From NCBI GenBank assembly GCA_964035575.1, contig OZ037851.1, forward strand, positions 496,001 to 560,000: a DNA stretch of 64,000 bases. Reading direction: 5' to 3'. How positions within the stretch are numbered: position 1 is the stretch's first letter; every line of letters starts with the position of its first letter. The notes beneath the pieces are model-generated. The model was not told the origin of the DNA, did no database searches, and saw only the letters and a program-made list of their open reading frames with translations. This DNA comes from Rhynchopus sp. YZ270_cl-10. Taxonomy: Eukaryota; Euglenozoa; Diplonemea; Diplonemida; Diplonemidae. The translations under genes were made by a program, and so were the position numbers. Below are positions 211 through 63,806 of this stretch, in pieces.

Positions 211-241
211 AAGACGAACCTAAACATCGTTTAGCCATCTT
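211..241 (+). repeat. Stem-loop repeat, type A
   Basis: Outer arms AAGACG and CCATCTT surround an inner stem CTAAAC/TTTAG with a short ATCG loop. It is a diverged copy, but its 3' outer arm is CATCTT, not the usual CACCTT, so it pairs canonically with an AAGATG-type arm. Confidence 0.5.
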
Positions 242-339
242 GAAAAATATATACCAACAAAGCAGTCAATAAACATGTATGTAAGCGCGAAAAAAGAGAA
301 AAAAAAAAAAAGTTGCCAAAAAAAAAAAAAAAAACTTGT

Positions 340-369
340 CAGATGCATGCACCTCTCACACACATCTGA
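340..369 (+). repeat. Stem-loop repeat, type B
   Basis: CAGATG and CATCTG form the outer stem around a TGCA/CACA-type middle and a loop containing CCTCTC. It sits directly after an A run. Confidence 0.55.
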
Positions 370-564
370 CAAAAAAGGAACCGCAAACGTATCGATAATC
401 CGACACGATAAGATTTGAGAGGAAGAGAACGATTTCAACACATCTTCAACAAAGTGAAGTTGTTGGTTGCAGACATCGCAAAGGGGAGGAGGGTGTGTGT
501 GGGAGGGAAGATATGTATGCTGTATGCAATGCGGAACTGCAGAAAAATTTTTTTTTCTTTTTTT

Positions 565-604
565 TGACTTGAAATACAACAGCCCTCTCATGACAGTGTA
601 CCTT
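565..604 (+). repeat. Stem-loop repeat, type C
   Basis: Begins TGACTTGAAATACAA and ends TGACAGTGTACCTT around a CCCTCTCAT core. TACA and TGTA can form the outer stem. Close copies lie near 4009, 10647, 35541 and 45711. Confidence 0.55.
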
Positions 605-2660
605 CAAACAAAACGTTGAAAATGCAAAGCCTCTGTGACAGTGTTGACCAGAACCGGTGTACACATCCCGCAATCGTGCTTTTCGCATTGAAACCTTGTA
701 CAGTCCCGACAACCACGCCGAAAAGAAGAAGGGAAAAAAGACAAATTGAAAAAGGAGACGAAAGTGCGATCATACAAAACAAAGTGACACCTAGGCCAGA
801 CACATGGGGGGGTTTTTTTTTGTGTTGGCAAATCACTTTATGCCAACTTTGTTTTTTTTTTTCTGTTGTTCTACGATGTAATCCTCGCAACAAAAAAAAT
901 ACACAAATTCAAAATCGGGCTATTCCATACGGTTCCCTCTAGAATGAGTGCATCTATTTCTGGTCCAGTATTGTTGGTCATTTGATTGAACCCTGCCCTT
1001 TTTCCATGTATGTTTCCTGAATTTGCAAAAATTTTCAGAAATAAATCATTTTTCTTTGGATTTAAATCCAAAGAAAGTGGTGGCTCGAACCAAACTGTAA
1101 GTGGTTTTCCGGTGTACACATACCGTTGCAATGTCAAAAGAAACCCCTCTCTTGCATTGTCAAAAAAAAAGGGGGGGGAACAGCTCATTTGAAAAATGGG
1201 TTTGAAAGATGTAGTGGTGTGACACGAGAACACACGTTCGGCCTTGTCTGGTATTTTGTACCCAATGAAATCCATACAAAATTGCATGGTCAGGGAATTG
1301 TTATTCAGATGTCGCAAAAAAGGAAAAAAAAGAAAAACAAACCAACAAATAAAAGCACCAACGGTACTTGTACCCTGATGCAGAGTAAAAAAAAAGGCAC
1401 CAGCTCGGTTGGATCGCAAGACCCGGCTCGCCCACACAGAACATCGCGTGCCACCAGGGGCTAGTAACAAGCAAAAATAAAAGGGGTTTTTTGGTAAGCA
1501 GCCTCGTGTTTAGTCGCCATAAAAAGAGCTCAAAAGGGGGGGTGCAAAACCCGCAAAAACAAATGATGAGAAGAAATAGGAACCTCAACTTAGCGAGGGG
1601 GAGTGTGTGTGTGTGTGTTTCTTTGAAAAAAAAAAGCGCCGTGGGCCTAAAACTGCATCCGGGAGTCCTTTCGTGGTAGTTCCTCAAGAAACCTGTCATT
1701 GGCCTGAGGGTAAAAAAAAAGTGCTGGGATGGCTAACCCTGGGAAACGAAGGTGGTCGCACACCTGGAGGTACACACCCAATCCCTAATGAGTCACTACA
1801 CCTAGGTGCCATCCTATTACGTATTAGTAGGCAAGGGGGAAGTACAGACACACCACCGCAGGCCAGGACACCTCCCCGAGGCTCTTTACAATGAGAATAT
1901 TAACCACAACCCCACACCACGTATGACTCTCACTCACACCTCTGGCGGGCCCACTTCGGCATGGCCTGTAAGGGTCGCCCTGATTGATCTTCCCAGGAAC
2001 TAACGAATGCTGTCTGAGATTTTTTTTGAAAAAAAAGTAAAATAAAAAATGTGTAATTGCCTCTTTTGCTTCCATATCATACGATTCTCCACTTTTGTTT
2101 TCAATAAAAGTGTGTGGCAAAAAAAATTAAAAAGGTGGGTTCCCTCGAGTCCGTTTCAATAAGTAAGGAGGTACAACTGGAGTATACGCCAAGGTATAGG
2201 GGGGTATAAAGTTCATATTGAAGAATAACAAACAGAAAAAACCACGATCGCGCGATTTTGCCGTTTGCATTATAGTTTGCTGGAGAGGGATAAGGGGAAG
2301 GGTGAACTCTGTAGTGGGTGTCTAAGCCCGTAGAAGGAAGTAAGGGGGGGAAAAGAGAGAGAGAAAAAAAAACTGGGAGAACCTCACAAAAAATATAGGT
2401 GAGGAGGGGGGAAAACAATACACTTTCGGGTTCGAAAGTATGGCAAAAAAAACATGAGAGTCTCACGCACATCCTTTTTTCCTTTTTCCTTTGTGAAAAA
2501 AAAAGGAATGATTACGTGGAATCACCATCTGATAAACCACGCAGCCATTTTATATTTTTCTTGTATAGAATTACTACCCTAGTCTAGGCTAAAGGTGTAT
2601 TTTGTACCCAATGCCCCTTGAAGGTTCGAGATGTACAGACATTTTTTTCTTCTTTTTTTT

Positions 2661-2707
2661 TGAAAACTTGGTTGTATTGTGTGCCACCCTAGAGTGTGCT
2701 CCACTAT
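2661..2707 (+). repeat. Interspersed repeat, type F
   Basis: Starts GAAAACTTGGTTGTATT and ends AGAGTGTGCTCCACTAT. It is almost identical to the copy at 31572-31620 and lies right after a T run. There is no coding potential. Confidence 0.6.
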
Positions 2708-3218
2708 CTTTTTCTTTTGACGTATTTACCAAGTGATCCTTTCATTTGGTTTCTTTCTTTTTGGTCTCAACAAAAATTCTTCACACCGCTGTTTAATCCT
2801 CTCCAGGGTCCTCCTCCTGGGACTGAGTCCCATTCTTTTCTTTGCACCAAGGTGCATTTGATAAAAAAAAAAAGGGGGGGTTTTTTTTAATATTTCCCAA
2901 AACCCCTTCTGACACGTACGAAGCAAGAGGAAAAAAAGAGGTCTCTCCCACACTGGGGCAGGGAAGTGGGAGGGGGAAAAAAAAATTCAAAACAAGATAA
3001 CCAGCGATGTGTGTCGCCCCACCCCCACTCACCCACGCGCCCCTTACACCCCCCCGCTTATAAACACATTGCCAATATGAATTGGGGAAAAATAAAAAAA
3101 AGGCACAAATTTCAATGGGAGCCGGCTCCTCATTTTTCCTCCAAAAATGCATAAAAAAAAATACATTGGTGGAGAGTCCTGCGCAAAATATAAAATAAAA
3201 AAAAATGAAAAATTTATA

Positions 3219-3251
3219 AAGATGAACCTAAGCCTCGCAGTAGGTCACCTT
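3219..3251 (+). repeat. Stem-loop repeat, type A
   Basis: AAGATGA and TCACCTT outer arms, with CCTA/TAGG inner pairing around GCCTCGCAG. The inner stem is shorter than in the consensus. Confidence 0.6.
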
Positions 3252-3578
3252 TTCAATAAAATGGGCAGCGAGTTGTGTCTACGTCATCAATTATTCAAAA
3301 ATAAAAACAAAAAAAAAAACTTTGTAAAGAAGGATATCCCTTTCGCTGTGTACATCCATTCCAAAGTTTGATTTTTTATTTTTGCTGCATCGACAAAAGA
3401 TTCACCAAAAAGGTGTGTTAGGATTACAATGTATCCTATGAACCTATGGTGGGGGGGCTAATAAATTCTGCAGATGGCACACCTCGTCCCTTAAGGAGTG
3501 TGGCAGAGATGAGACGTGAAGAGCCTCTATTCTGACACCTCAACGGATGGACGCTCAATAAGAAAGCTTAATCAATGA

Positions 3579-3600
3579 AGATGCCCCTCGTGCACACACA
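3579..3600 (+). repeat. Partial stem-loop repeat, type B
   Basis: AAGATGCCCCTCGTGCACACA matches the 5' arm, loop and inner stem of the type B hairpin. The closing outer arm is lost. Confidence 0.4.
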
Positions 3601-3783
3601 AAATAAATAATTTTTTTTTATCGGCAAAACCACCTTGCACACTATAAAATAAGAACAAAAAAAATAAATAAAAATGGTGCGGTATCAACACCAAAAAGAT
3701 TAAAAGAACTGCGTGGCGCGAAATAGTGGCGAATAAAGAAAATTGGAACGCAAAAAAAAAGGGATAACAAAGAGAACAGTGTC

Positions 3784-4008: not shown

Positions 4009-4048
4009 TGACTTGAAATACAAAGTCCTCTCGTGACTGCGTATCATG
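4009..4048 (+). repeat. Stem-loop repeat, type C
   Basis: TGACTTGAAATACAAAG leads to GTC-CTCTCGT-GAC. This is the same 7-nt loop as types A and B, closed by a different stem. Confidence 0.6.
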
Positions 4049-4222
4049 ACCGGTGCACCGTGGATGGACCCCAACCACATAGTCCTACATCAAACAAAAC
4101 CCGCAAAATGGGGGGAAAAGGTTGGGTGCTGCGTGCAGTACTGCCACAGTTCTCCATTCAAACCACAAAAAAAAAACAAAAACCAAAAAAAAAAAAAAAA
4201 AACAAAAGGAAGAAAGGTTTGT

Positions 4223-4256
4223 AAGATGATCCTAAGCCTCGCGTGCATAGTTCTGA
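4223..4256 (+). repeat. Stem-loop repeat, type A (diverged)
   Basis: AAGATGATCCTAAGCCTCGCGTGCATAG keeps the 5' arm and most of the inner stem. The closing outer arm has decayed. Confidence 0.5.
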
Positions 4257-6211: not shown

Positions 6212-6272
6212 AACAAAAAGAAGGGAAAAAAAAACCGTTCGCAAAGAAGTTGTGCCGAAAAGAAAAGTTGGT

Positions 6273-6307
6273 AAGATGATCCTAAGCCTACAACTTAGTC
6301 AAACCTT
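6273..6307 (+). repeat. Stem-loop repeat, type A (diverged)
   Basis: AAGATGATCCTAAG pairs with CTTAG, but the loop is CCTACAA instead of CTCTCGT. The last arm retains ACCTT. Confidence 0.5.
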
Positions 6308-17710: not shown

Positions 17711-18148
17711 CGTGTAGTGGTCTTTCTGTTTGGGGAATTTCTGGAGTGAAAAGGGGTGCGGGGAGTAGAGGTAAGGGATGGTGGATTTGGGGTCTCGAAA
17801 AAATTTGGTGGGTTTTTTGGATTAGAACTGCATTTTTTAGTTTCCTTTACGTGGACCCCTATGCCCCTATGCCCCTCCTCCCTCCCCCACTTCCACCCAA
17901 ACCCGGTCCAGATTGAAAAAATAATACCGCAAAAGTAAAAAAAGATACCCCCATATACAAAACCTGCCGCAGGTTTACACCGTCAATGTTGCACTTTTGG
18001 GTTTGCGGGTACATGGTAAACACAGGTTAGAAACCACTAAGGTTGGTGGGTAAAAACGTTGGTGGGTTTGGGGTCTCGAAAAAATTTGGTGGGTTTTTAC
18101 CCCACCAACCTTTGTTGGATGACTGTAGCTTTCTGTTGGAAAATGGGT
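17711..18148. repeat. Intergenic stretch with a direct and an inverted repeat
   Basis: A 33-bp segment containing GGGGTCTCGAAAAAATTTGG and GTGGGTTTTT occurs at 17784-17817 and again at 18066-18099. Around the second copy, AAGGTTGGTGGGTAAAAAC (from 18039) and GTTTTTACCCCACCAACCTT (to 18111) form an inverted repeat. The right end GATGACTGTA resembles the end of the element at 47374-47472. There is no gene. Confidence 0.6.
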
Positions 18149-19243
18149 TCAAGACAAGTGTGAGTTGTCAATAATCTCAACACACTCATCCCAGACGTAC
18201 GCCACCACACCACCACAGCTGCTGATCGCAAGACCGCAAGCATCTTTGTCCTGCTCAAGATTTTCGCGGTGCAAGAGTTGTTCCCCTGTTGAAATATACC
18301 ACGAGCTCAACACACTTGGGGAGTAGGCAGCAACAATGTCGTTCGACACAGCAACATCAAGCCACTCGCTTTCTGAGACGTCTTCAAATACACATTCACC
18401 TGTTTCAATGTTCCAGACACGCACACAGTTGTCGCAACACGCTGCAATGAAACGCTGGTTTGGTGTCAGTGCCACATACACAACGTTCCAAGGGCATGTC
18501 AGAACAAGCACCTCCACCCCTGTCGTGTAATCCCAGATGGTAATCTTTTTGCTGCCCTCCCCACACATCGCCACCCTGTCGCCTGTCACAACCATGACGA
18601 ACTCGCTCTCCACAATGTGGCCCCATTCATGCACAACAACGCCTGTTGCAATGTCCCACACCTGCAAACCTTTGTTCTTGCAGCACGATAACAGCTTTGT
18701 TCCACAGGGTGACCATGCCGTGGTCCACCTCTCATCACCTTCATCTCCAAAGGAGTGCTTCAACGCACCTGTCTTCACGTCATGAACTTCAGCACACTGC
18801 GTGTCAGAGTTGACGCATGACACCCACTCACTGCACGGTGAGAATGCTGGGAAACAAACCAACTTTGCAGGGAAGCGACACAGACTCTCATGTGTTTCCG
18901 TGTCCAAGATGGACATCTCCCCATCATCCCACATCACTGCAAGGTAACTATCACACGGGGAGAGTGTAATCGCGAAAGCGCCACCCGGACCTTGTATCGA
19001 TCCAGGAGTGATGTTGGCACCAGTGTAGTACAGCTCAACGGCACATCCCTCATCCATCTCGGTGTCGCAGATGCGCAAGTCGTCGTCGCCGATGTCGCCA
19101 CCGTCTTTCATCCGCACACCAACATGCCGAGCACGTGGCACGCCGAGCTCCGCAAGAAGCTTTCCCTTCATCTGTCCAAGTGTGTCGCTCCCGCCCACTT
19201 CTATCACACAGCTTGCAGACTCGAAGTGTCCTGTGATGTCCAT
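18149..19243 (-). CDS. WD40 protein with possible ubiquitin-like N-terminus
   Basis: A single-exon gene of 364 aa starting at the first ATG. Residues 1-75 look like a beta-grasp (ubiquitin-like) fold: an opening strand pair, a helix LGQMKGKLLAELGVP, then VGVRMKDGGDIGDDDLRI and CAVELYYTG. This assignment is inference from pattern. Residues 80-360 hold about six WD40 blades, seen as FSPCSEWVSCV, WSPCGTKLLSCCKNKGLQVWD, ITIWDYTTG, LTPNQRFIAACCDNCVRVWN and related strings. WD40 propellers are binding platforms; the partner is unknown. There is no signal peptide or membrane segment, so the protein is probably cytosolic. The next WD40 gene (21667-23025) is of a different architecture. Confidence 0.82.
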   Translation of the reverse strand: MDITGHFESASCVIEVGGSDTLGQMKGKLLAELGVPRARHVGVRMKDGGDIGDDDLRICDTEMDEGCAVELYYTGANITPGSIQGPGGAFAITLSPCDSYLAVMWDDGEMSILDTETHESLCRFPAKLVCFPAFSPCSEWVSCVNSDTQCAEVHDVKTGALKHSFGDEGDERWTTAWSPCGTKLLSCCKNKGLQVWDIATGVVVHEWGHIVESEFVMVVTGDRVAMCGEGSKKITIWDYTTGVEVLVLTCPWNVVYVALTPNQRFIAACCDNCVRVWNIETGECVFEDVSESEWLDVAVSNDIVAAYSPSVLSSWYISTGEQLLHRENLEQDKDACGLAISSCGGVVAYVWDECVEIIDNSHLS

Positions 19244-19293
19244 GTTCAGGGTAGCTCTGTTCTATCGGGACAGGTGTGTGGGAAGGCAGGTTG

Positions 19294-19515
19294 GGGACTG
19301 GTCAAGGCAAAGTACTGGCAATGGCCAGTACAAAAACTGACTAGACTTACTGGTCAATGGCCAGTACGCACTAAGTTTTTGTGTTTCCACGCATGCAGAA
19401 CCTGAGTAAGTATTTACTTACTGGTCATGACCACTACATTTTCCCAGGTTGACCGGTCAAACTGACCGATCAACCTAAAAACGGTCAAAGTGCTGGTCAT
19501 GACCATGACCAGTCC
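19294..19515. repeat. Cluster of ACTGGTCA palindromes with inverted ends
   Basis: The stretch is bounded by GGACTGGTCA and TGACCAGTCC. Inside lie repeated palindromes: TACTGGCAATGGCCAGTA, TTGACCGGTCAA and TGGTCATGACCA. It sits 50-270 bp upstream of the WD40 gene start at 19243. It is either a small inverted-repeat element or a dense array of binding sites for a dimeric protein; the shared outer ends favour an element. Confidence 0.6.
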
Positions 19516-19652
19516 ACCGTGCAATGAATTGCAGAGAGGAGGAGGGGAGGAGGATGGGGACGATGGAAAAGTAGGAAAAAATCCTGTGTGTAGGAAATCT
19601 ATCTAAATAGGGTACATGAGATGGGAATAGAGGGGTGTCGTGAGAGGGCTGG

Positions 19653-21431
19653 TCAAGCGTGCTCGCTCAGCCTGCCGTGCCATGTGCGCAGTGCGTCTCC
19701 CGCTGCCTTGCGTGCGCTGTCCTGCGCTTCGCTCTGTTCGCGGCGGAGCTGTCGGCGCGACACATTATCGAATTTGATGATTTTCTCCTCACGCTTGCGC
19801 TCCGTTTTATATGGCACCACTGCAGCTGTGAGGGATAGGTGTTCACATGGTCCTCAAAACAACGCTGATAAAAAGGTAAAAACGCAACACTAAAATCTTA
19901 ACGTACACTCTCTGTTGATTCTAAAAACGGATAAAATATTACCCAATATCACAAGCGACATCCCCAGAAAACAAAAACACTCCGACATACCTCTCGGACT
20001 ATGCGTTGCGCCTCGACTCCGACTGCCACTCCGGCTTCTGCTCCTCTGCACTGCCTGCGGGGACTCCACTAAGAGATCCTGCAGGCTGATACGGTGACGC
20101 ACCACCTTCACAGGGGCCGAGGCTGATGCGAGCGGCGGAGGGGGGAAGACGGGGGCGGGCGAGAGCGGGCTGTACACACCACCACCACCACCACCACTGC
20201 TCCCTACCACTAAGGGCGACGGCGGTGCGAGCGCTGATGTTGGCGTACGTTGCTGTTGTTGTTTGCCTTGCCCCTGCGACACCTTGATGTCATAGTGCGC
20301 CAGGTGCAGTCTCTCCGCCACACGCCGCATATGCTCTTCCTGTTCACGCAGTGCTAGCACCGCCGCCTCACGCATCATAATGACCTGCAGAGACGCAAGC
20401 TGCTCCTTCTGTCTGTTCAACACCCGCCCCCGCCCCTCCCTCTCAGATGCATAGAGGTGCCGTCTCTCTCGCCGGCAATGCAGCTTCTCGCCGTTGAAGA
20501 TGACGTCGAACATATGATCGCGCATCCGGCGTGCCTCCAACACCGCCAGGTCTTCGGCTGCTATCGCATCTGTTACGGTCTCGCTTTCGGTGTTCAGCGC
20601 AGACAGCGTGGCGTTCAGTTCTCGGATCTCCTTTTCCAATGAAGAAACCTCTTCCCAGACGGGGTTTTCTCTTAAGGAGGCGAGCTGGTTGCCTAAGGGT
20701 GGTTTGGTAGGGGTGACGTCGTCGTCGCTGTCGGATGCTGGGATCGGGGAGGCTGGGGCGAGGGCAACAAAGGTGGGGTCCTCGCAGGAGCTGCACCGCT
20801 GTAGCTGGGAGAGCAGCGCGGAGATGAGTTGTGTTTCTGCGGATATGGTTTCGGTAGTGGCTGCGGCCGCGGCAGCGTCGTGCACTTTAGCAGAAAGGGC
20901 CTCCATGTCTTTGCGGTTGACCTTCAGACGTGCCGTTTCCTCTCGTATAGCAGCAAGAAGACGACGTCTTTCCTCCAGCAACGCGAGATCGCATATTGCC
21001 ACCATTGACGGAAGGGGTTGGTACACTTCGTCCTCGAAGAAGCGGCGGAGCTTGGAGTGGAGATGAAATCGTCGTCCTGCTTCTTCGGAACAGCGTAGTT
21101 TGAAAGGATGCGATGCGGTGTTGAGATCTGTGACCATGACAGTGCGCCCATCAGGGTCCCATACGACACGCTCGATGTTGCGGAGCTGGATGCTGTGCAC
21201 AACACGCCATCGAGGGTCCGCCTGCGGCGTGTCTTCAAAGCAGTACATTGCAAAGTGCGTCAACGCAAGTGCTACAGCGCTTTCATTTATCCCTTCACCC
21301 GAAGTAATACTAAATCCAACCGCATCACTAAACTCAATACAATGCTCTCCAAGATCATACAGTATAGAAACAACCTGTTGGTCAGAGGCAAGACGTAAAT
21401 GGTCGCTTTTGGATTGTTCAAACTGCGTCAT
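19653..21431 (-). CDS. Coiled-coil protein, possible PH-like N-terminus
   Basis: Exon 1 is 19991-21431 and exon 2 is 19653-19825, giving 537 aa. The intron 19826-19990 begins GTATGTCGG and ends CCCTCACAG, and the split codon is restored exactly. Residues 1-140 alternate strands and end in a helix (WRVVHSIQLRNIERVVWDP, then FHLHSKLRRFFEDEV), which could be a PH-like fold; this is only a suggestion. About 150-190 and 255-395 are charged coiled coils. About 400-480 are Gln/Pro/Gly-rich with an SRSRSGSRSRG stretch. Exon 2 adds a basic helix (KTERKREEKIIKFDNVSRRQ) and ends in LSEHA. The function is unknown; a cytoskeletal or scaffold role would fit. Confidence 0.8.
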
Positions 21432-25462: not shown

Positions 25463-25550
25463 AAAACAAAAAAAAATAATAATAAAAAACATACGGAAGC
25501 GAGGAAAGCTGAATGTGGAAAAAGATAGGAAAAAAAAATAATCATAAAAC

Positions 25551-25582
25551 GATGGATATGTCTCTCGTGCATATTCATCTTT
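25551..25582 (+). repeat. Stem-loop repeat, type B
   Basis: GATG/CATC outer stem, ATATG/CATAT inner stem, TCTCTCGT loop. The inner stem differs from both type A and other type B copies, yet pairs. Confidence 0.65.
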
Positions 25583-27503: not shown

Positions 27504-27758
27504 GGACCGTGCCATATTGCCGCGACTAAAGAGATAAAAATACACACAAACACTGCCCGTTCTCTTTCATTCAAAGGCCGTACAGTTTGTGGAAATAAAC
27601 GCCAACGGAGGAACATCACTGCTGCTTAAGTTCAGCGCATAGATCTGCGAAAAAAAAACAAACCAAAAAACAAAAAAAGGGCGAAATGGCGGGTCCCACC
27701 CTTTCCACACGCTTAGAAGTAAACAAAAAAAAAAAAAAATGCAAAAAAAAAAGTTTGT

Positions 27759-27794
27759 AAGATGAACCAAAGCTTCTCGAGCAGAGCCACCTTG
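27759..27794 (+). repeat. Stem-loop repeat, type A
   Basis: GTTTGTAAGATGAACCAAAGCTTCTCGAGCAGAGCCACCTT has intact outer arms. It lies about 250 bp downstream of the metacaspase stop. Confidence 0.55.
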
Positions 27795-30877: not shown

Positions 30878-31571
30878 TGTGTTGCTTTTTCCTTTTTTTT
30901 GTCAATAATGATCTGTAATTTAACGATAGAAAGTGGAGTAAAATGTGTGAGAGATATATTCCAGAGAGGTTAGTACCCGGGAGAGGGGGGGGATGAAAAA
31001 GCACGATGAAAAACCTGAAGTCTGTCGTGGATTTTTTGTCACCTTGAAGAAGATATCGTATGGCAGCTGCGTGGAATTCCAACGGCGTCAGGAATGATAT
31101 TTCAGCCGAGATATGGGTGGGGAAAATGATCGAAAAAAAAAATCCTTTATTTTTAATGCTTGACAATAAAACTGAATCTTCTTCTGCTGGGGAGCAAAGG
31201 GAGGAACGTGGAAGAGATAGGGGGGGAGACCAGGGGGGAGGCGAGGGCGCTGTGCTTTTGTAAAAGAAAAGATATTTACAAGTTGGGTAACTGCCCGTTT
31301 CCCTCCCCTTTTTTGATACCGCTACCCAGTGAGGGTTTTCTATTGGGTAAAAGATGGCGTCGTTGTGGCAAATATATTTTTTTTGTGGCGTCACAAATAC
31401 ACAAAAAAAAGAGTAAAGCTGGTCAGACTCAAAAAAAAAACCATCCATTTTAAAAAATCCGCCCCCTTTCCCTTGAAGTAAGAGGAAAAGGCCAGGGGGA
31501 GGAAAAAAAAATACGCCAGAAAAACTGTTGAAAACAATGTGTTGTAGGAACTAAATTATTTTTTTTTTTTT

Positions 31572-31620
31572 GAAAACTTGGTTGTATTACTAGTAGCCAC
31601 CCTAGAGTGTGCTCCACTAT
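31572..31620 (+). repeat. Interspersed repeat, type F, left part
   Basis: GAAAACTTGGTTGTATTAC...AGAGTGTGCTCCACTAT is nearly the same as 2661-2707 and related to 41848-41895. It follows a T run. Confidence 0.65.
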
Positions 31621-31691: not shown

Positions 31692-32191
31692 AATTTTTTT
31701 TTCTCTTCTGCACTATGGTGTGTGGCCAAACGGAAAAGAAAAAAAAAAGGTCACAAAAAAATACCTACCCTACATAACACTGATATCAATGGACCACACT
31801 ACACCATGCTTTTTCGTTGGCACATCTCCCATACATATGTGATACTTTCTTTCATGAATAAAAAAAAGCAAGAAATGGTGTTTTGTGACTACCTACTTTC
31901 AAAGGGGAGAAAATGTGAAGGGAAAGGGAAAATGCGTGGGGCTGAAATGGGTTGATGGGGCACACATTTTTCTTTTTCTTTTTTAGAAAAAAAATGATAA
32001 ACGCGTTTTGTTATTTCGCTTTTATCGTGTGCTCTCCATGCAAAGTTTTATCCACAACAAATATATGGCATAAATATTCGTATTTTTAAAAATAAAAATC
32101 TGAATATTCCTACTGTCAATGGAATAACAAAGCGGTGTCATTTTTGGTCAACTTTTTGGAGCTCAAAAAAAAAAAAAAGAAAAAGCTTGAA

Positions 32192-32221
32192 AAGATGAAC
32201 CTGAGCCTCCCGTGCACTTAA
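32192..32221 (+). repeat. Stem-loop repeat, type A
   Basis: AAGATGAACCTGAGCCTCCCGTGCACTTAAAA: the 5' arm is intact and the loop is CTCCCGT. The closing arms are eroded. Confidence 0.5.
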
Positions 32222-32535
32222 AATAGCAGTAGTCAAGAAAGATATCCACTCATAGAACATAGGAAATGGGTACTATTTACATATAACTACGGTACGTAAA
32301 CAGCACCCATTTGAGCAGAACTAAATCGAAAACTGAAATCCAAAGACACTCAGGCTGCGCATAATCTTTGTATATTCATTCATTGTTCACTCTGATAAAC
32401 TCAACTGAAAAAGAGAAAGATATGTTGTGAACAGGCCAAGAAGGGCCTCAATTTTAAAAAAATAAACAAAATAGAAAGCTGGACGATGCAGGGAAGGGCT
32501 ACGGGGGGGAAAAAAACAAAAAAAAAAAAGTTTGT

Positions 32536-32568
32536 AAGATGAAAGCTTCTCGTACTCAGTCACCTTGA
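32536..32568 (+). repeat. Stem-loop repeat, type A (internal deletion)
   Basis: GTTTGTAAGATGAAAGCTTCTCGTACTCAGTCACCTT keeps both outer arms and a TTCTCGT loop but lacks the CCTA bases of the inner stem. Confidence 0.55.
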
Positions 32569-34008: not shown

Positions 34009-34223
34009 TATACGGGGCGGGTTTCACAACTTTTTCACAACTTTTCATACCCACATTAGTCAAGCAAAGTGTGAAAATTTGTGAAAATTTGTGAATATGA
34101 TTGAAATTTTTGCGAATTAGGGGTTTCACAAAATTTTTAGTCCTATTCACGGATTTTCACAATTTTTTTCACACTTTGCTTGACTTATGTGGGTTTGAAA
34201 AGTTGAAACCCGCCCCCCGTATA
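34009..34223. mobile_element. Foldback element with TA ends
   Basis: TATACGGGGCGGGTTTCA on the left and TGAAACCCGCCCCCCGTATA on the right continue inward as inverted copies for some 65 bp each (TCAAGCAAAGTGTGAAAA against TTTTCACACTTTGCTTGA in shifted register). Only about 60 bp of unpaired centre remains. TA at the ends and no coding frame suggest a Tc1/mariner-type miniature element. Confidence 0.7.
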
Positions 34224-36422: not shown

Positions 36423-37190
36423 TACCGTAGTCGGAAAAATGTTGTAACGGAATAATGTTGTAACGCTGGAAAAAATGGCCCAGCGTTACAACATTATTCC
36501 GTTACAACATTTTTTTGGGGTTTATTTGTCTTAGGGATTTTTGCTGGTGCGGGGGTGGTTTTTGAAAAGAAAAATCTTGTGCCTCTGACGGTGGTGAAAA
36601 AAGGGCGGGGGGCGGGGGGATGATGTTTTTTTTTTTTTTTTTTTTTTTTGGTGTTGTTCAACTTAGCCGTAGGCTCGACTTTTTTTGTTCCACATCAAAC
36701 TGGACAGGGCAAGGGGGGTACGTTTACTATGCACATGAAAAGCACTTGGTCCGAGCGAAGCAGGGGCCAGACGTCTTACAATCTGTACAGTGCCGGTTAG
36801 TTAGCCCCACTGCGCTTGCGGCGCTACCAGCAAGGAACGCCAGGTTGGGGGCATCTCCTCCTTCCGAAACAGGCTCGTGGGGATTGCGGCGCTTGCAGAA
36901 TTGGGCTAATCCCATTTGTTTCATTTTTTATTTGGGTGAGGGGTGGGGGAGGACGTCGAAAAACCTGAAACACTAATTATCGGCTTGAAATTGGGGTGTG
37001 GTGTGTGAGGTTGGGGATTATGCCGACTGTTCCAAAAAAAATCCCTAAGACAAAGTTCACCCCAGTCATAAAAATGTTGTAACGGAATAAAGTTACAACT
37101 TCCCGCGATCCGCAGCGTTACAACATTATTCCGTTACAACATTTTTCCGTTCCAACATTTTTACGTTGCAACATTTTTCCGACTACGGTA
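36423..37190. mobile_element. TA-ended inverted-repeat element with hairpin arms
   Basis: The ends are TACCGTAGTCGGAAAAATG and its exact complement. Just inside, 36435-36513 is itself a large hairpin (ATGTTGTAACGGAATAATG facing CATTATTCCGTTACAACAT), and 37069-37147 repeats it. Further in, TTTGTCTTAGGGATTTTT (36525-36542) and its exact complement (37037-37054) form a second pair of ends around about 490 bp of non-coding DNA. This suggests one element inserted in another. The end sequence is related to that at 59343-59429. Confidence 0.75.
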
Positions 37191-39079: not shown

Positions 39080-39112
39080 AAGATAAACCAGGTCTCGAAT
39101 GCCTGGCACCTT
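39080..39112 (+). repeat. Stem-loop repeat, type A with a replaced inner stem
   Basis: AAGATAAACCAGG-TCTCGAAT-GCCTGGCACCTT: the inner stem is CCAGG/CCTGG instead of CTAAGC/GCTTAG, a full compensating replacement. Confidence 0.65.
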
Positions 39113-41703: not shown

Positions 41704-43908
41704 TTACCCCTCGACAGCGAGAAATCTAAAGCCGCCTTGTCTGGTGATGAAGACCACCGATGCAGCGTCACTCCTAGTAGCGGGGCTTCCGACAGTCTGC
41801 AGAGGTTGTGTGTGTGTTTCTTTTGTTTTTTTTTTTTTTTTTTTTTTGAAAACTTGGTTGTATTAGTGTAGACACCGAGGATGAACTCCACTATACTTTT
41901 TTGTTGTATCGCCAATCACTTTACACCTACTGGTATAAATATCTGTACTCAATAAATGTAGGCCGAAGCCTCTGTACTACGGAAGGTATAGAACGCAGAC
42001 CGTCCTCAACTCAAATTCTTGGCAAAGAACATAGAAAAATGCTGATACCTTTTCCCCTTCGCCTAACCCCTCGAACACTGGTTGAGACACTGCCTCGTCC
42101 GCACTGCTTTGCATGCTGAATACCTTGGCGTCGCATTCCCTCCCCATGCTTGCCTCTGACGCATAGCAGCCTAAAACGATGTCTGCCCTTTGTTCGATTC
42201 TGTCTAATACTGTTGTTGGCCTGTTTTCGGTGGTGTTTTTGACTGATTTGATGGCAAAAAATTCGTCGGCGGAGCGGCTAACATAGATGCGTTTGTTAAT
42301 GAGGCATGTGGTAGGGAGGTGGCTCAGGCATTCTATCAGAAGAGAGAACAGCTCCGCCCCTGCCGACATCTTCTCCACACATTCTCCGTACAGACCGCCG
42401 AAGATTTTACGTTGCCGGTCACTCCAAGCAGAGGGGTCGCTGTCGTCCTTCAGCACCTCCAAAAACCCTTCGTAATCAATTTCCGCAGAACGCAGCAACG
42501 TCACTGCAGAATCCTTTTGGATTTTCAAAGCAACAACCGTGAGAAGCCATTCCAATCGGTTGCATTGTCTCCGCCCTGTATGGTTAATTTGCGGTCGCGG
42601 TGCGGTGCTCGAAGGCGAAGAAGGGAAGGTCTCATGCGGCAATGGCGAGCACGGTTCCACAAAGTCAACCGTTTCCTCCGCATCTTCAGGTCGTCCTCCC
42701 AGGAACGAATCCTCCGCAAAGAAGACTAGCCGAGAAGGGCTGAGGGTTACGTCATTAAACGTCAAAAGCCGTTTTCTCAGAAAATTGAGTGACCCATACG
42801 TCGCAGAGCGAGAGTCGTTTACAACACAGACATCGCTGTCATTCAGAGAGGTAGGCACAATGGAGACCGGCCGTCCAGAGAAGGATGTGCTTTGCTCATC
42901 GTTGTACTCTTCTGCGTCGTCGCTGTCATCCGCATTCGCTTCATTCCGTTTATCCTGTATCACCCTCTTTTTTAATGTCGCAAGCAAATCCTTTAACATA
43001 GCGAAATGAGAGTTAAGTGGATATCTCCCTCCCTGTGGAGAATGTTTCTTAACGGGAGAAACGGACATCGGAGAAGCCTCGGGAAGGATAGGGATTGGGG
43101 AGAGTGACAAAACGGTTTCATCTTCGGTTCGTTCACAGAGGTCCAGCTCGCTCATACTGTGGTCTTCTTTGGGTTCGTCGGGGCGGCGAAATGATTTCAA
43201 TGTTTGAAACGAAAACACATCTCTGTCTTCATCATATCCTAGACGCATCACGGATAACACCTTTTTTGCGATGTTCAGTGATTCGGTTCCTAATGGTGTG
43301 AGAAGATGGGGTTTGTCCAATGTCCGAAACGACCCTGGAGTGATAACCGCATCGTGCGTGAAAAAAGAGTGCAAACCACCCCCAGATGACCCAGATGAGG
43401 TACCTCCAAGGGAGCCACCCCGCATCATTTTAATATGCGGTCGATCCACCGGGCCCAACGCTGGAGTGTCCGGATCTGCTGCAGTAATAGCATCTGAAGA
43501 TCCATATTTCAAAACATCTCTCATAGAGAGCAGGCTCACCTCCATGTTTTCCCCTCGAACCTCATAAATCATGGACGGTGCTTTGAAAGTCTTCGATTTT
43601 GTTGGAGAAGATGCCTGCAAAGGAAGGCCAAGATGCGGATTAGGTAACTGCAATTTCGGTCGTTTATGAGTCTGCCGTTCTCCGGTGGAGGACAAAAAAT
43701 GTTCCATTCCTTCATCCTCCGAACTGCTTTCTCCCTCATCATAAAAATCGCGTTCCTTTCGTTTGCATATTTTTGGACCTCCTTCGACAACCTCAGGACC
43801 TTCCAGCATAAAATTGTCAAGATCGTCATCAACGTCCTCTGAACTGCTTTGTCTTACCCCGTCTGCATCAATCAAAACTACATCAGATCCATGAGTGTTC
43901 ACATCCAT
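41704..43908 (-). CDS. Unknown acidic protein, probably nuclear
   Basis: Exon 1 is 42049-43908 and exon 2 is 41704-41796, giving 650 aa. The donor is AAG|GTATCAGC and the acceptor CTCTGCAG|ACTGTC. Phase is kept and exon 2 ends TRQGGFRFLAVEG then TAA. The intron call rests on splice motifs plus frame. Residues 1-90 are acidic and Ser-rich with basic patches (KICKRKERD, KRPKLQ) that could be nuclear localisation signals. About 110-380 are of low complexity with Ser/Pro. About 440-600 look globular and helical (LEWLLTVVALKIQKDSAVTLL, LYGECVEKMSAGAELFSLLI). I recognise no family. The 252-nt intron holds a type F and a type H repeat. Confidence 0.72.
41848..41895 (+). repeat. Interspersed repeat, type F, inside an intron
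   Basis: GAAAACTTGGTTGTATTAGTGTAGACACC...ATGAACTCCACTATA lies in the intron of the unknown gene, directly after a long T run (on the gene strand, an A run). Confidence 0.6.
41945..42010 (+). repeat. Interspersed repeat, type H, inside an intron
   Basis: ATCTGTACTCAATAAATGTAGGCCGAAGCCTCTGTACT, then CAGACCGTCCTCAACTC. It is the best match to 33043-33118 and, inverted, to 44165-44215. Confidence 0.5.
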
Positions 43909-46863: not shown

Positions 46864-47109
46864 TATGGGGGTAAGGACATTCTGTATCCCCAAGTGTGAC
46901 TTTTGGACAATTCAAACCCACAAGGTTTCGATAAAGACAATTCAGACCACAAGGTTCACAAGGTTTGAATTTTGGACACTTCAGACCCACAAGGTCTGAA
47001 CTGTCCAAAATGCAAACCTTGTGGGTCTGAAGTGTCTTTATCGTAAATCTTGTGGGTTTGAATTGTCCAAAAGTCACACTTGGGGGTACCAGAATGTCCT
47101 TACCCCATA
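46864..47109. mobile_element. Foldback element with TA ends
   Basis: TATGGGGGTAAGGACATTCTG faces CAGAATGTCCTTACCCCATA after a one-base shift. The arms extend through AAGTGTGACTTTTGGACA to near the centre, with repeated ACCCACAAGGT words. Nearly the whole 246 bp can pair. Confidence 0.75.
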
Positions 47110-47928: not shown

Positions 47929-48682
47929 CAGGGCTCTCAAGATCCTCCACGAAAAAAGCAGAATTTTCGAAATGAGGAGGATTCGTTTTTGCAAAAAAAA
48001 CCCCCCAAAAAAAAATTTTTCCCCCGCAACAAGCGGTCGTCGCGCGCTTCGCGCGCGCCTCCCTGACAGCCACAGAGCGGAGAGGCGGGTCAATTTTGCG
48101 AGATAACAAAAAACGGAAATCTAATCCTTTCTCTTGCACCGTACGCTCCACGAACCGTACAAAACCAATACGTCTTCCAGAAGCAGGGGCTGATGCAACG
48201 GCGGGTAATTTTTTTTAAATGGCAAAAATTTTGCAGCTTTGGTCACGTTGCATTTTTTGGCTGCAAAATACAAGGGTATCCAAAGACATTGCCAACTATT
48301 TTTTTGCGGAGCAAAAAAATAATATAAATGGCGCCGCAGGCGAAAAAAAATTGGGGTACGGTGTAAAAATGCTTCCTTTTACACTACAGAATCGCTCAAC
48401 GAACCCTTTTTTTGAGTAGCAAAAAATGAAAATGGCGCCGCAAGCAAATTTTTTTTAAGGTGCAGCCCTGGACGGTGCATACAGGCTCGGGAAAATATTG
48501 GCTCCCTCGGGGGAGACAAAGTGACCCCCCACTATAAAACCCCTAGGAGGATAATCCTCCACCCGAGCCCGCCAAAAAAAAAAAAAAAGTGGAGGAAATC
48601 CTCCACCAAAAAAGCCTGAAAAAAAAAAAAAAAGCCCCTGGAGGAAATATCCTCCCCTACGTGGAGGATCTTGAGAGCACTG
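47929..48682. mobile_element. hAT-like non-autonomous DNA transposon
   Basis: The ends are CAGGGCTCTCAAGATCC and GGATCTTGAGAGCACTG, a 22-bp inverted repeat with one mismatch. Perfect 8-bp duplications GTGTTACC flank it at 47921-47928 and 48683-48690. The body holds a GCGCGC-TTC-GCGCGC palindrome and a module running from GGCGCCGCAGGCG through GGGTACGGTGTAAAAAT. The module is shared with 49729-50475 and 60324-60433. There is no transposase. Confidence 0.88.
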
Positions 48683-49610: not shown

Positions 49611-49642
49611 AAGATCCTGAGCACCACATGCTCAGTCATTTG
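49611..49642 (+). repeat. Stem-loop repeat, type A with a changed inner stem
   Basis: AAAGATCCTGAGCACCACATGCTCAGTCATTT: the inner stem is CTGAGC/GCTCAG, one base pair changed on both sides from CTAAGC/GCTTAG. Confidence 0.6.
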
Positions 49643-49728: not shown

Positions 49729-50475
49729 CAGTGTTTCCCACGGTGAGATTTTGGGGTGAGAAATCTCACAAAAAAAAAAAAAAAAAAAAAAGTGAGGTGA
49801 GAAATCTCACCTGCGGGGAAAAAAAAAAAAAAAAAAAATCATGGTTGAACCACGGGAGTACCATGGAACTGGGTTGCTGACCGCACCATCCAGGCTGTAC
49901 CTCAATTTTTTTTTGCCTGCGGCGCCATTTTCCCTTTTTTGCTCCGCAAAAAAGGGTTGGGTGTGTGACTATGTGCTGTAAAAAGATAGATTTTTACACT
50001 GTACCCTAATTTTTTTTCGCCTGCGGCGCCATTTGTTTGATTTTTTTTTTTGCTCCGCAAAAATCCCTATGTTCCCAATGTCCCTGGTCAGCAGTGCTGA
50101 AAAAATTTTGGGCACAAAAACAAGCTGACCCCTCAATCTTCCAACGACAGTGACATTTATGTCAACAATTTTTAGAAATGTCGCGTACCGTGGCTTCGCT
50201 TGGGTGCCATGCCTGCCATGACTGCCGTTTATTTTTAATTTTGTAAATGTACTGAGTTTACTGATAATTCGTATACCACGTGTGCCTGGTGCAAATATCA
50301 ATGAAGTGCCGAACTCCGAGAAATTCTCACATTCCGCCGGAGGCCCCCAACTTGAGCTAAGGTGGGGACCCGGGCGCGCGAAGCGCGCCCGGGCTCGCCA
50401 CACCTATGCAAAAACCCGCAAAACCGCAAAATCTCACCTATTTTCAGAGTTAGGTGAGATGCTGGGAAACACTGG
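49729..50475. mobile_element. hAT-like non-autonomous DNA transposon
   Basis: The ends are CAGTGTTTCCCA and TGGGAAACACTG (right end CTGGGAAACACTGG). AAAAAGAA lies on both sides (49721-49728, 50476-50483) but is low-complexity, and the right junction is uncertain by one base. The body carries the GGCGCC/TTTTTACAC module in the opposite orientation to 47929-48682. It also carries a CCCGGGCGCGC-GAA-GCGCGCCCGGG palindrome, two A runs with a GTGAGAAATCTCAC palindrome, and no transposase. Confidence 0.8.
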
Positions 50476-50483
50476 AAAAAGAA

Positions 50484-60103: not shown

Positions 60104-60323
60104 TATACACACAATTCATTCTACCAAAAACCCCGAGTTAGGTGTACTGGGTGATTCAGATTGTTGTTATAGTAACCTGGGGGTGTCTCCGAAAAAAGCA
60201 AATTTTATTTTTTAGTAACAAACAGTTTTCCGGTTTTGTTACCTGGTATCTTCTTCCTCCGGATTTTTATATTTTTTATTTTTACAAATAACAGTAACAG
60301 TTACCTGGACCTTCTTATAAAAT

Positions 60324-60433
60324 GGCGCCGCAGGCGAAAAAAAAATCAGGGTACGGTGTAAAAATCTAGCTTTCACACTACCGAGTCACTCAACGAACGC
60401 GGAGCAAAAATGAAAAATGGCGCCGCAGGCAAA
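60324..60433 (+). repeat. Shared GGCGCC module
   Basis: From GGCGCCGCAGGCG through GGGTACGGTGTAAAAAT and TCACTCAACGAACG to a second GGCGCCGCAGGC. The same order is found at 48329-48445. Parts in the opposite direction are at 49880-49925 and 49980-50032. Confidence 0.7.
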
Positions 60434-61319
60434 GGATTTTATGGTGCGATCAGTTACCCAGGGCCCTCCCGTGGTTCAACTACGGTTCTACCAGGAACTT
60501 TTTTTGACCCTCACCACCATCACCACATGTCAGGCGAGAGGTGATGTTTTTTTTTCCAATTTTTATTTTACAGTTATCCGGGTTTGTTACCTGGGCCAGA
60601 TACATTTTTATTTTAATTTTACAAAAGAATTATGTTGTTACCAAATGGTTGTTACCTGGGGGAAATTTTTGGGGGTAAAATAATTATTTAGTTTTATTTT
60701 AACCCTATAAGAGCCAAGCCATATTTTCAAGCCACTTTTGAGTTTTGGTTTTTGGGGCTCTCCAACCGGTAAAGGGACCCCAGATGCAAATTTTTGATCG
60801 TACCTGGCCGCAATTGAAAGATTTTGAACACGGCTTTCAATTCCATATTTTTAAGTTTTTTTTCGAAAAAAAATGTTATCCCCAAAATGAGGTGAGCATA
60901 AAATCCACTTTTTGGTTTTTTACTCATTCGGCCGGCCGAGGAAAAACACGTAAATTATTTCTGTCCGAAAATGGCGTTATTTGAAAGATTGTTCACAAAA
61001 TCTTTTCAAAGAAAAAAAAATCGAGCAAAAAGTCCTAGTAGAACCCAACTTATATGAGTGCAGCTCTGTTAGCAGCCATGTCTAAAACTGATTTCCTGAA
61101 CGATTTACACTGAAACATGTCTAAAAACGTAAAAAATGGGCGATTTTTCACAATTTGGGCATCTCCTGAGGTCGAAAGCCCCCAGAATGGGTCGGAACGA
61201 CCCTGTGACCCGAAAATCCATGAAAAAAGCACCCCGAAATACGAAAAAACAGTGAAAATTCGGCTTACTGTGTGCTCTGCATAGGTCGTGTGTGTGGGGT
61301 GTTTTCGTGGTTTTGGTGG

Positions 61320-62790
61320 CAACTCGCCCCAGCATCCAAATGGCAAACAGATGCACAAAGGTTTTCGATTTTTGCTTATTTTAAAAGATTTGAGTCAAAT
61401 AGTTTCCCCATAAACCAAAGGATTTTTACGAAAATAAGCAGAACCATTGTCAGATCATGATGACCCTTAGCCATAACCATGTCCTTCGGGTCAAAAGGGT
61501 GCCTCTTGGGTGGGTAGCAGTCCACAGATCCAAAGTGCAATCGGATGCGTAAAAGTTTTCGATTTTTGTTTCTTTTGAAAGATTCGTGTCAAAATCTTTG
61601 AAATATATAAAAATATTTTCACGAAAACGAGTAGAACCTCATACAGAGCATGGGGTGTCATTGAGGAACCAGAATAGGGGGTGCTCGTCCAAAGGGCTTT
61701 GAAAAGTGGCACGACTCCCCCCAGCATCGAAAGTATTATCCGATGCATAAAAGTTTTCGATTCTTGCTTCTTTTGAAAGATCGGTGCAAATTCTTTCCAC
61801 ATAAAAAAAATGTTTTTACGAAAATGAGTAGACCCTATGTCAGAGCACGTTGTCCTACAGATTTTAGAATGTGGGGGGGTCACAGGGGTGCCCACACCCC
61901 CACCCCGCCTCCCCCCAGCATCGAAAGTAATATCCGATGCATAAAAGTTTTCGATTCTTGCTTCTTTTGAAAGATCGGCGAAAAATCTTTCGAAATATAT
62001 AAAAATATGTGTTCACAAAAATGGGTAGAACCCGACTAAGGGCTTGTAGGCATTGGGTATCGCGAAAGGTACATACACGGGTCGGGAAAGATCTTTTTTT
62101 TTTTTTTTTTTTTCGAGAAAAAAAATCCTCTTCTCCCGAAAAAAAAAAAAAAAAAAAGATTTTTGGGAGAAAAAAAAAAAGAGAAAAGATTTGAAAATCC
62201 TGGGAAAATCCTGAAAAAATCCTGAAAAATCCTGGAAAAATCCATGAAATTTCATGAAAAATCTCGAGATCTTGAGAAATCTTTGAAAAAAAAAAAAAAG
62301 ATTTTCAAAATCTTTTTTTTTTTTTTTCCCAAAAAGATTTTTCAAAATCCCAAAAATCTTTTTTATCTTTTTTTTGAGAAAAAAAAGATTTTCAAGATCT
62401 TTTTCATCTTTTTTTCTCTTTTTTTCCTTTTTTTTTCAGGATTTTTCAAAGATCTCAAAGATCTCGAGAGATCCTGAAAAAAAAAGACAAAAATCCTGAA
62501 AATCTTGATTTTTTTTTTTTTTCTCCCGAGATTCTCGAAAAAAGACAAAAAAAGACAAAAGATCTTTCCCGACCCGTGTACATATTTGGGGTGTGGGTGA
62601 AAAAACGTCACTTTTGGTGAAAGTAGCACCATGGCCCCCAGCACCGAAACTAATATCAGATGCACAAAAGTTTTCGACTCTTGCTTCTTTTGAAAGATCG
62701 GTGCAAATTATTTCCACATAAAAAAAATGTTTTTACGAAAATGAGTTGAACCTGTCTAAAATCATGGCGTCATTTCGAAAGCCATTAAAG
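61320..62790. repeat. Tandem array of units of about 195 bp
   Basis: Five units carry GATGCATAAAAGTTTTCGAT, CTTCTTTTGAAAGAT and TTTTTACGAAAATGAGTAGA in order. Anchor positions are near 61351, 61544, 61742, 61935 and 62658. The last gap is long because a 503-bp element interrupts it. Units differ by about 10-20 percent by eye. Confidence 0.8.
62076..62578. mobile_element. Inverted-repeat element (inner level of a nest)
   Basis: CACGGGTCGGGAAAGATC and GATCTTTCCCGACCCGTG are perfect 18-bp ends. TACATA is present on both sides (62070-62075 and 62579-62584) as a likely 6-bp target duplication; a TA duplication cannot be excluded. The inside is low-complexity: T runs, A runs and words such as AAATCCTGAAAAATC. 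It splits the tandem array, so it arrived last. Confidence 0.8.
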
Positions 62791-63094
62791 TGGCTCTTGG
62801 CTCTTATAGGGTTAACAACTTTATAAATCACCCAGTACATCTTTTTTCAAAAAAAAAAAAAAAAAAAAAAAAAAAGGTGATAAATATAACTATCAGAAAA
62901 GACGGGGGATTGAAAGAAGGGTTTTTTTTCGTTGAAATATGAAAGTCATCGTGAAGGGGGGTTTGAAAGTATGTTTGTTTTTGTTTTTATTCTTGCTACT
63001 CTGTTTGTTTTGTATTATATTTCACTGTAACTTTGTAAGTTAAAGTCGTCGTGAAGGGGGGGGACACAAAAGGGACAAAAAAGCCCTTTTAAAA

Positions 63095-63140
63095 AGTGAA
63101 ATTGACAGTGCAAACGCCTCTGGGAGGACGCGGGTACTGG
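63095..63140 (+). repeat. Interspersed repeat, type D
   Basis: AAGTGAAATTGACAGTGCAAACGCC, then GAGGACGCGGGTACTGG. It matches the 5' half well and the 3' half loosely. Confidence 0.5.
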
Positions 63141-63200
63141 AAAAAAAAAAGGGCGCGCGGAATATCGCCCGGGAGGGAGGAAAAAATGAAGAAAAGTTGA

Positions 63201-63229
63201 AAGATGCAATATGCCTCGTGCACATCTGT
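63201..63229 (+). repeat. Stem-loop repeat, type B
   Basis: AAGATGCAATATGCCTCGTGCACATCTGT: outer AGATG/CATCT paired, loop CCTCG. Confidence 0.55.
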
Positions 63230-63334
63230 CAACTTACCCAAAAAAAAAAATAAAAAAATGTAGTACGATATAGTCCAAAGCTTTCCGTTACCAATAAAGA
63301 ATACGGGTAGGTGTGTGTCTGGTTTTCTTATTTC

Positions 63335-63401
63335 TTTGATAAATTGTTGGAGTAGTGTAGTTGCCTCGGTTGTGTTGCCACAGTTGTGCAATCTCCACTG
63401 T
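63335..63401 (+). repeat. Interspersed repeat, type F, right part
   Basis: Matches 31624-31691 over about 67 bp with a single one-base length difference. It is followed by TTGAAAAC, the word that opens the left part of type F. Confidence 0.75.
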
Positions 63402-63780
63402 TTGAAAACCTTTTTACCATTCCTTTTTAGGGAACGGAGCATGTACGGTCCTGGAAGCTCCAAGAAAATGAAGTCGGCGGGCTTAATAGGAAGTTGCCTT
63501 TCCTAAACGTGCACACACAACTGGCAAAAAGGGGGGAGGTGTCGTCACTCACCTATATCATCATTGAAATACCATTGCTTACCAATGGTACATTCTGATA
63601 TTGTTGCCCCCCTTTTTTTCAGTCCTTTTTATTGAGCTTGCTCACCAGCTGGACCTCTTGAGTGTATTAGAGCAGACCCCAAATAAGGCGATAAGAGCAA
63701 AATACTCGAAAAAAAGAGGCATTTTTTTAGTGCGGTCAGAATGTCACGGCACTCACTACAAATAAGGGAAAACTTGAAAG

Positions 63781-63806
63781 AAGATGAATACCTGGTGCAC
63801 ACATAG
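63781..63806 (+). repeat. Stem-loop repeat, type B (diverged)
   Basis: AAGATGAATACCTGGTGCACACATAG keeps the 5' arm and the GTGCACACAT 3' part. The loop is reduced. Confidence 0.4.

Follow-up and report, generated by a model that had tools for sequence, protein, structure and literature searches.

Intergenic hairpins of Rhynchopus as probable 3' tails of non-LTR retrotransposons

The 64,000 nucleotides considered here (the window) are positions 496,001 to 560,000 of contig OZ037851.1 in the assembly GCA_964035575.1 of the diplonemid Rhynchopus sp. YZ270_cl-10, which was searched over its 152 Mb in 126 contigs. When open reading frames (ORFs) of at least 200 codons are chosen longest first and without overlap, the window contains 14, all on the minus strand. 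It also carries many copies of a short hairpin, which an initial annotation made from the letters alone had described as a fixed seven-nucleotide loop, CTCTCGT, on stems that change while keeping their pairing, i.e. a selected, protein-bound RNA structure and not a decaying transposon. The hairpin family is real. Its members are very probably the 3'-terminal stem-loops of non-long terminal repeat (non-LTR) retrotransposons, or long interspersed nuclear elements (LINEs), which have been copied between the genes and are decaying there, and not a new host RNA.

Copies were counted with two sequence-only profiles, one for each hairpin form, over the window and 20 further loci (264 kb in all). The window holds 30 copies at a score of at least 12 bits, 33 at 10 and 41 at 8, and the 264 kb hold 67, 73 and 90, against 0, 1 and 1 at the same thresholds when this DNA is reversed. 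All 30 window copies (12 bits) lie on the minus strand, which is the LINE-sense strand and the complement of the one on which the hairpins had been described. Across the genome, the pattern AGATGA-N6..9-CTCTCGT-N5..9-CATCTT, in which the inner stem is free, has 364 matches and its reversed counterpart 0; for the loop word alone, the window has 18 occurrences (14 on the plus strand, 4 on the minus strand) where 3.8 would be expected. Genome-wide pattern counts are totals throughout, and per-copy readings use the first 100 places listed. Outside the window, 37 copies at 12 bits or more were found in 200 kb, taken at round positions on eight contigs already known to carry copies, and scaling from this sample gives, as a rough extrapolation, about 28,000 copies in the genome. 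The window has no Rfam 15 match at the gathering score. An initial loop-centred hairpin scan was discarded for its excess of chance hairpins and, since a MAFFT alignment put the 3' arms of the two forms out of register, profiles and patterns were used instead of a covariance model.

Read on the strand of the initial annotation, form A is GTTTATAAGATGA-N-CCTAAGC-CTCTCGT-GCTTAG-T/C-CACCTT and form B is ACTTGAAAGATGAATGTGC-CTCTCGT-GCACA(CA)-CATCTT. The inner stems are mostly of two sequences, CTAAGC/GCTTAG and TGTGC/GCACA; the loop is common to both forms and the inner stem differs, with pairing kept between the two masters, as would be expected if a LINE protein reads the hairpin. Searching the genome for form A by its flank, loop and 3' end gave 1,173 exact matches, and the control gave 0. 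For form B without the extra CA, 104 matches were obtained with up to three mismatches, a count that underestimates the variant with the extra CA, and on this basis form B looks rarer and more diverged than form A. Among the first 100 matches to the pattern with a free inner stem, 30 are nearer to form A and 70 nearer to form B.

Fourteen LINE families, separated by match and frame length, were sampled over 2.7–3.0 kb downstream of the reverse transcriptase. One of them has a 1462-residue ORF2, after whose stop codon the sense strand continues with CGAATATGAT and then the form A hairpin, AAGGTGACTAAGC-ACGAGAG-GCTTAGGATCATCTT-ATAAACTTTTC, 10 nt separating stop and hairpin. The 3' end of this LINE reads AAGGTGACT[A/G]AGCACGAGAGGCTTAGGATCATCTTATAAACTTTTC in 21 of 21 copies examined (the first and 20 further), where A/G is a single difference between LINE subfamilies, and the DNA beyond the hairpin differs among these copies and is mostly T-rich. 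Form A is the exact 3' terminus of a LINE family that has copies with an open ORF2. This ORF2 contains the domains Exo_endo_phos (PF03372) and RVT_1 (PF00078), i.e. an APE-type endonuclease and a reverse transcriptase, the latter with 95 relatives, many of which are Diplonema papillatum proteins at 35–49% identity. A search of the genome with the ORF2 protein gave at least 33 matches; among those listed, 18 are full length at 95–100%, 12 are cut at varied 5' points yet reach the last residue, and 3 are other pieces. Varied 5' cuts combined with an intact end are the pattern of 5'-truncated LINEs.

Form B probably belongs, as a tail, to a different element that is older and more diverged and whose coding part was not found in the sequence fetched. 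The basis is that two of the five form B copies fetched with at least 150 nt (L065 to L069) have upstream sequence in common: L065 and L069 share a stretch with a score of 74, which was not equalled in any of 500 shuffles, and the remaining pairs give no clear signal. A second LINE family, with a reverse transcriptase ORF of 1747 amino acids, ends in a different hairpin of its own, AGTGGAGCACACTCTAGGGTGGCTACACTAATACAACCAAGTTTTC, in 4 of 4 copies examined, and the window carries three short copies of this tail on the same strand as the other hairpins. About a dozen further reverse-transcriptase frame groups, split by eye by frame length and reaching 3,394 codons, were noted in the genome (150 of 739 candidates scored), some of them near contig ends. 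At the N-terminus of a LINE ORF2 (L064:1142–1250; also L063), an in-frame start follows the stop of an upstream ORF, and CLLSDGDIHPHPGPKK lies near this start. The sequence resembles a 2A ribosome-skipping motif, except that it has HPHPGP where ExNPGP is usual.

The sense strand of the LINE is also the better-folding strand of form A. In its commonest version AAGATG faces CACCTT, which makes an A-C mismatch on the strand first described and a G-U pair on the other, and the form A master folds at -13.3 kcal/mol (z -3.3) in the LINE sense compared to -7.8 kcal/mol (z -1.7) on the opposite strand. Form B is uninformative in this respect because both of its strands fold well (z -3.7 in the LINE sense, -3.9 on the opposite strand). 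Of the 21 loci scanned, 14 contain copies, and in every one of these all the copies share the strand of the longest open frame. Along seven contigs, neighbours among the first 100 listed form A copies differ in strand in 8 of 93 pairs (P 1e-17). A single window copy of the 30 lies wholly inside one of the open frames, which cover 37% of the window, and on the sense strand the hairpin flanks contain 45–49% T (35 and 32 flanks) versus 32% in the non-ORF DNA of the window. A role as a trans-splicing or polyadenylation signal is unlikely, because copies cluster at locus L004, where six occur within 2 kb, and the two short gene junctions 17821–18152 and 19261–19893 have none at 12 bits. The seven-nucleotide loop presumably resembles that of a tRNA anticodon arm; an origin from such an arm was rejected.

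Considering whether the stems covary or decay, form A was read with the inner stem left free, and 92 of the 100 listed rows were used after 8 with indels had been dropped. The stem is kept in 69, while 6 have the form of the second LINE subfamily, a G-U pair in LINE-sense RNA, and were set aside; the other 17 copies hold 18 changed pairs, none of them restored to a Watson–Crick pair (the change leaves a G-U pair in 3 cases on the LINE-sense strand and in 3 on the opposite one). With the stems held and the loop left free, 79 of the first 100 of 1,487 matches keep the loop and 21 have it altered, and change per site is 4.7% in the loop versus 2.3% in the stem. In the local set, chosen by profile at 8 bits or more (54 form A and 36 form B copies), paired double changes number 8 versus 6.5 in shuffles for form A and 6 versus 3.4 for form B, where 107 of 1000 shuffles reach 6. 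Local divergence is 0.174 in the loop, 0.151 in the stem and 0.254 at other positions for form A, and 0.183, 0.154 and 0.192 for form B, the other positions including diagnostic sites and the tail. Between lineages the stems covary; among form A copies they do not, and these copies mutate without detectable selection on pairing.

These results divide what had been claimed for the hairpins. Sites 3784, 10568, 25551 and 32952 belong to the family by the 12-bit census; sites 211, 4009, 39080 and 49611 are absent from it and fit the plan poorly. By eye, the loop is TCTCGAATG at 39080, ACCACAT at 49611 and only 3 nt long at 211, and the outer stem is absent at 4009. The loop is not fixed, being altered in about a fifth of the listed form A copies when left free and diverging at least as much as the stem, and the impression that it was arose at least partly because the loop served as the search handle. 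Inner stems have changed on both sides with pairing kept at 211, 25551 and 49611; covariation in general fails in form A and shows a weak excess in form B. A selected, protein-bound hairpin is plausible for the parent elements, whose masters fold well and whose differing inner stems pair, but does not extend to the individual form A copies with their uncompensated changes. The statement that this is not a decaying transposon is not upheld, in view of the same changes and of the position of form A at the end of a LINE.

Intact form A copies, with both stems and the loop, are estimated at about 1,175 (1,487 matches multiplied by the 79 of 100 listed with an intact loop), and 240 of them, around 20% as a rough estimate, run at least 5 nt into the LINE body. 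A longer, 18-nt LINE extension has 271 genome matches with up to three mismatches overall. Local form A copies that begin at the hairpin base, with 40 nt of upstream sequence available, number 39, of which 15 come from loci L001–L008, themselves selected with a form A query; LINE body is recognisable in 2 of the 39, one of which is marginal. No shared head 5' of the hairpin was seen by eye in the flanks of the local copies. The copies are thus mostly the tail alone, about 46 nt, and this is the unusual part of an otherwise known kind of element; no earlier report of tail-only hairpins was recognised within the literature library searched. The variable base N divides the copies further, the estimated share with LINE extension being 28% for T (the LINE's own base), 18% for C and 7% for A, rough figures that mix slightly different pattern anchors and hand-copied loop and base letters. 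On the listed rows, T and A differ in this share with a Fisher P of 0.003. Counted by eye, 100 listed of the 240 extended copies have T in 74, C in 19 and A in 7, and among the 100 listed copies with a free loop altered loops occur in 11 of 28 with base A versus 5 of 48 with base T.

The process that we propose would begin with recognition by the LINE protein of the stem-loop at the 3' end of its RNA. After nicking T-rich tracts between genes, the protein would use target-primed reverse transcription to copy the RNA at the cut. Most insertions would end at the hairpin base and leave a copy of about 46 nt, which would then mutate without detectable selection on pairing. If the T tracts keep one orientation throughout the directional gene arrays, as may be the case, and if they are the insertion target, copies would come to lie on the gene strand and the strand rule would follow.

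A number of observations weigh against this account. About 80% of intact form A copies stop less than 5 nt from the hairpin base, which is sharper than ordinary 5' truncation would lead one to expect. Target-site duplications are weakly supported, with a mean score of 5.04 in 28 copies versus 4.35 for re-paired flanks (P 0.017, 300 shuffles) in T-rich DNA and in a set that also includes the query-chosen loci L001–L008. The stem and loop of form A diverge less than the other positions, which profile selection or the diagnostic sites could explain. Local form B has 48 one-sided broken pairs versus 57 in shuffles (10 of 1000 as low) and, in the 49 of 100 listed form B rows with fixed spacing, 6 pairs are restored versus 1.8 in shuffles (P 0.007), an excess lying in five copies, whose stems could be inherited through shared descent. 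A search with the upstream stretch of L065 matched nine places in the genome but not that of L069; five of the nine lie on a single contig, as do all three genome matches to an extended form of the B tail. No coding sequence was found beside any of the five form B copies fetched, and the other 12 of the 14 LINE families have neither tail in the 2.7–3.0 kb fetched, the 3' end of several not having been located.

The scarcity of LINE body beside the hairpins is also what would be seen if the hairpin were an independent, minimal short interspersed nuclear element (SINE), a 46-nt template RNA in its own right, possibly surviving as a protected piece of intergenic transcripts, that the LINE protein retroposes in trans. 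We consider this possible but rather doubtful. The 240 extended copies against about 1,175 with an intact loop, the 2 of 39 local copies with LINE body upstream and the unequal extension shares of T, C and A all speak for it; however, extended copies exist for all three bases, so that older LINE subfamilies could have supplied them, the base-A copies, with more altered loops, look older, and the head of other origin (tRNA, 5S or 7SL), with an internal promoter, that marks a SINE has no counterpart, since by eye the local 5' flanks share no head. A headless and promoterless version, in which the 46-nt stem-loop is the retroposon itself, released from polycistronic transcripts and re-inserted in T tracts on the gene strand, is in our opinion unlikely. 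If real, it would rank among the smallest retroposons known to us, and it would be self-seeding, if every copy is included when its host gene array is transcribed.

Host function is a much more remote prospect, and we regard it as highly improbable that the hairpins are cis-regulatory RNA in untranslated regions (UTRs), bound by a host protein, with covarying stems under selection, or tails domesticated later. Such a function would suit the gene-strand orientation of every copy in the 14 loci that have any, the 29 of 30 window copies not wholly within ORFs and the restored pairs of form B, and there is precedent in the short retroposons recruited in Leishmania 3'UTRs (PMC2323293). Against it, form A shows no compensation and a loop conserved no better than the stem, the window holds partial copies and broken stems, identical sequence terminates a LINE, and the strand bias could also come from T-tract polarity; the uncompensated changes of form A led to the rejection of a host riboregulator with covarying stems. 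That the hairpins arose by chance in A/T-rich intergenic DNA can be practically dismissed. The loop word alone is short, the quoted sites 4009, 39080 and 49611 match the plan incompletely, and single weak sites may be chance, but the reversed controls (0 copies at 12 bits against 67 in 264 kb, and none against 1,173 and 364 exact matches) refute it for the family as a whole.

Tails of LINEs remain the preferred reading of the hairpins, and there are close parallels for them. Hayashi et al. (2014, PMC4176376) describe zebrafish stringent-type LINEs that require a 3' stem-loop, the loop of which is specifically recognised while a different stem is tolerated as long as it pairs; the pattern, for which the initial annotation knew of no described family, has therefore been described. 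Like the tails of UnaL2, ZfL2-1 and ZfL2-2 treated in that paper, the Rhynchopus hairpin is a 3' stem-loop on a LINE with endonuclease and reverse transcriptase, and the combination of such an ORF2, the stem-loop in 21 of 21 copies and short elements with the same tail fits the stringent type, for which a loop common to forms A and B on differing inner stems would be expected. Unlike those zebrafish L2-clade LINEs, as far as they are described there, the present ones belong to a euglenozoan-type genome, are known here from sequence alone and have left copies that are mostly tail only.

LINE/SINE pairs that share a 3' tail are mentioned in the introduction of the same paper (PMC4176376), and the short Rhynchopus elements likewise share their last tens of nucleotides with a LINE, with only the tail seen and, on inspection by eye, nothing in common among local copies upstream of the hairpin. 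The SIDER retroposons of Leishmania, found, according to PMC2323293, by a 79-bp signature common to trypanosomatid retroposons, are also short, numerous and outside the coding regions of directional gene arrays; the Rhynchopus copies differ in being 46-nt copies of a 3' end. Truncated LINE copies, at least 12 of which were found for the form A LINE at greater length, provide a further likeness. Such 'dead on arrival' copies have an intact 3' end, a variable 5' end and no later selection. The pile-up at the hairpin base is sharper than any we know of from dead-on-arrival LINEs elsewhere.

Table 1. Hairpin copies (profile score of at least 12 bits) and tail copies of the second LINE family in the window
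Feature	Position	Strand	Basis	Site in the initial annotation
Form B, 14.6 bits	331..367	-	profile	
Form A, 21.9 bits	3207..3250	-	profile	
Form B, 18.4 bits	3562..3598	-	profile	
Form A, 41.8 bits	3781..3817	-	profile	3784
Form A, 38.2 bits, match from model position 7	4212..4251	-	profile	
Form A, 46.7 bits	6166..6211	-	profile	
Form A, 24.4 bits, 3' part only (model 19-46)	6262..6289	-	profile	
Form A, 23.8 bits	6877..6913	-	profile	
Form B, 44.3 bits	10561..10598	-	profile	10568
Form A 3' fragment, 12.7 bits	21445..21464	-	profile	
Form A, 24.0 bits	23288..23335	-	profile	
Form A, 44.9 bits	23760..23801	-	profile	
Form A 5' half, 13.1 bits	23855..23874	-	profile	
Form A, 44.5 bits, mutated loop	24581..24626	-	profile	
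Form B, 19.2 bits, altered stem	25549..25580	-	profile	25551
Form B, 15.7 bits	26000..26026	-	profile	
Form A 3' fragment, 18.7 bits	26528..26550	-	profile	
Form B 3' fragment, 16.2 bits	26736..26756	-	profile	
Form A, 36.8 bits, broken stem	27749..27793	-	profile	
Form A, 24.8 bits, match from model position 12	32181..32215	-	profile	
Form A, 33.1 bits, 3' arm partly missing	32526..32566	-	profile	
Form B, 28.6 bits	32944..32979	-	profile	32952
Form B, 46.9 bits	34759..34798	-	profile	
Form B, 22.6 bits	38915..38947	-	profile	
Form A, 19.1 bits	47142..47186	-	profile	
Form B, 17.5 bits	50514..50542	-	profile	
Form B, 18.0 bits	55778..55803	-	profile	
Form B 3' fragment, 15.4 bits	55888..55908	-	profile	
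Form B, 20.5 bits	63191..63224	-	profile	
Form B, 14.9 bits	63768..63804	-	profile	
Second LINE family, short tail copy, different stem-loop, ends CAAGTTTTC then A run	2646..2707	-	94% over 64 nt to LINE copy L036	
Second LINE family, short tail copy	31512..31620	-	80% over 111 nt	
Second LINE family, short tail copy	41832..41897	-	90% over 67 nt	

Other repeats share the window with the hairpins. Copies of one, at 79–89%, lie at 48283–48478, 49842–50132 and 60317–60448 and include a 155-nt inverted pair (48313–48467 and 49893–50047); this repeat family also occurs 5' of the LINE copy L063 (contig C73) and beside the LINE L032. At 61334–62771 there is an 89-nt direct repeat in five copies, four spaced by 194–198 nt and the fifth 723 nt further, adjoining short inverted repeats. 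Inverted repeats with arms of 35–45 nt that are 91–100% complementary, at 36423–37190, 34038–34205 and 46884–47089, are possibly inverted-repeat transposons. A 945-residue caspase-domain protein is encoded at 28040–30877 on the minus strand, and a protein search with it returned itself and one weak match among 7,999 candidates scored. Outside the window, the last ~140 nt of the sense end of locus L040 (C48:700800–703735) hold the start of a gene for an EF-1-alpha-type GTPase, which looks like the EFL variant.

For this genome, a candidate 'new RNA family' is replaced by a concrete parent element, a LINE lineage whose insertions among directional gene arrays are mostly bare hairpins on one strand and, roughly extrapolated, number tens of thousands. 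The copies form a natural data set on the choice of a tail by a reverse transcriptase and on the reason why copying stops, and they advise caution more generally, as hairpins with a fixed loop and varying stems that are found by reading sequence can be retrotransposon tails.

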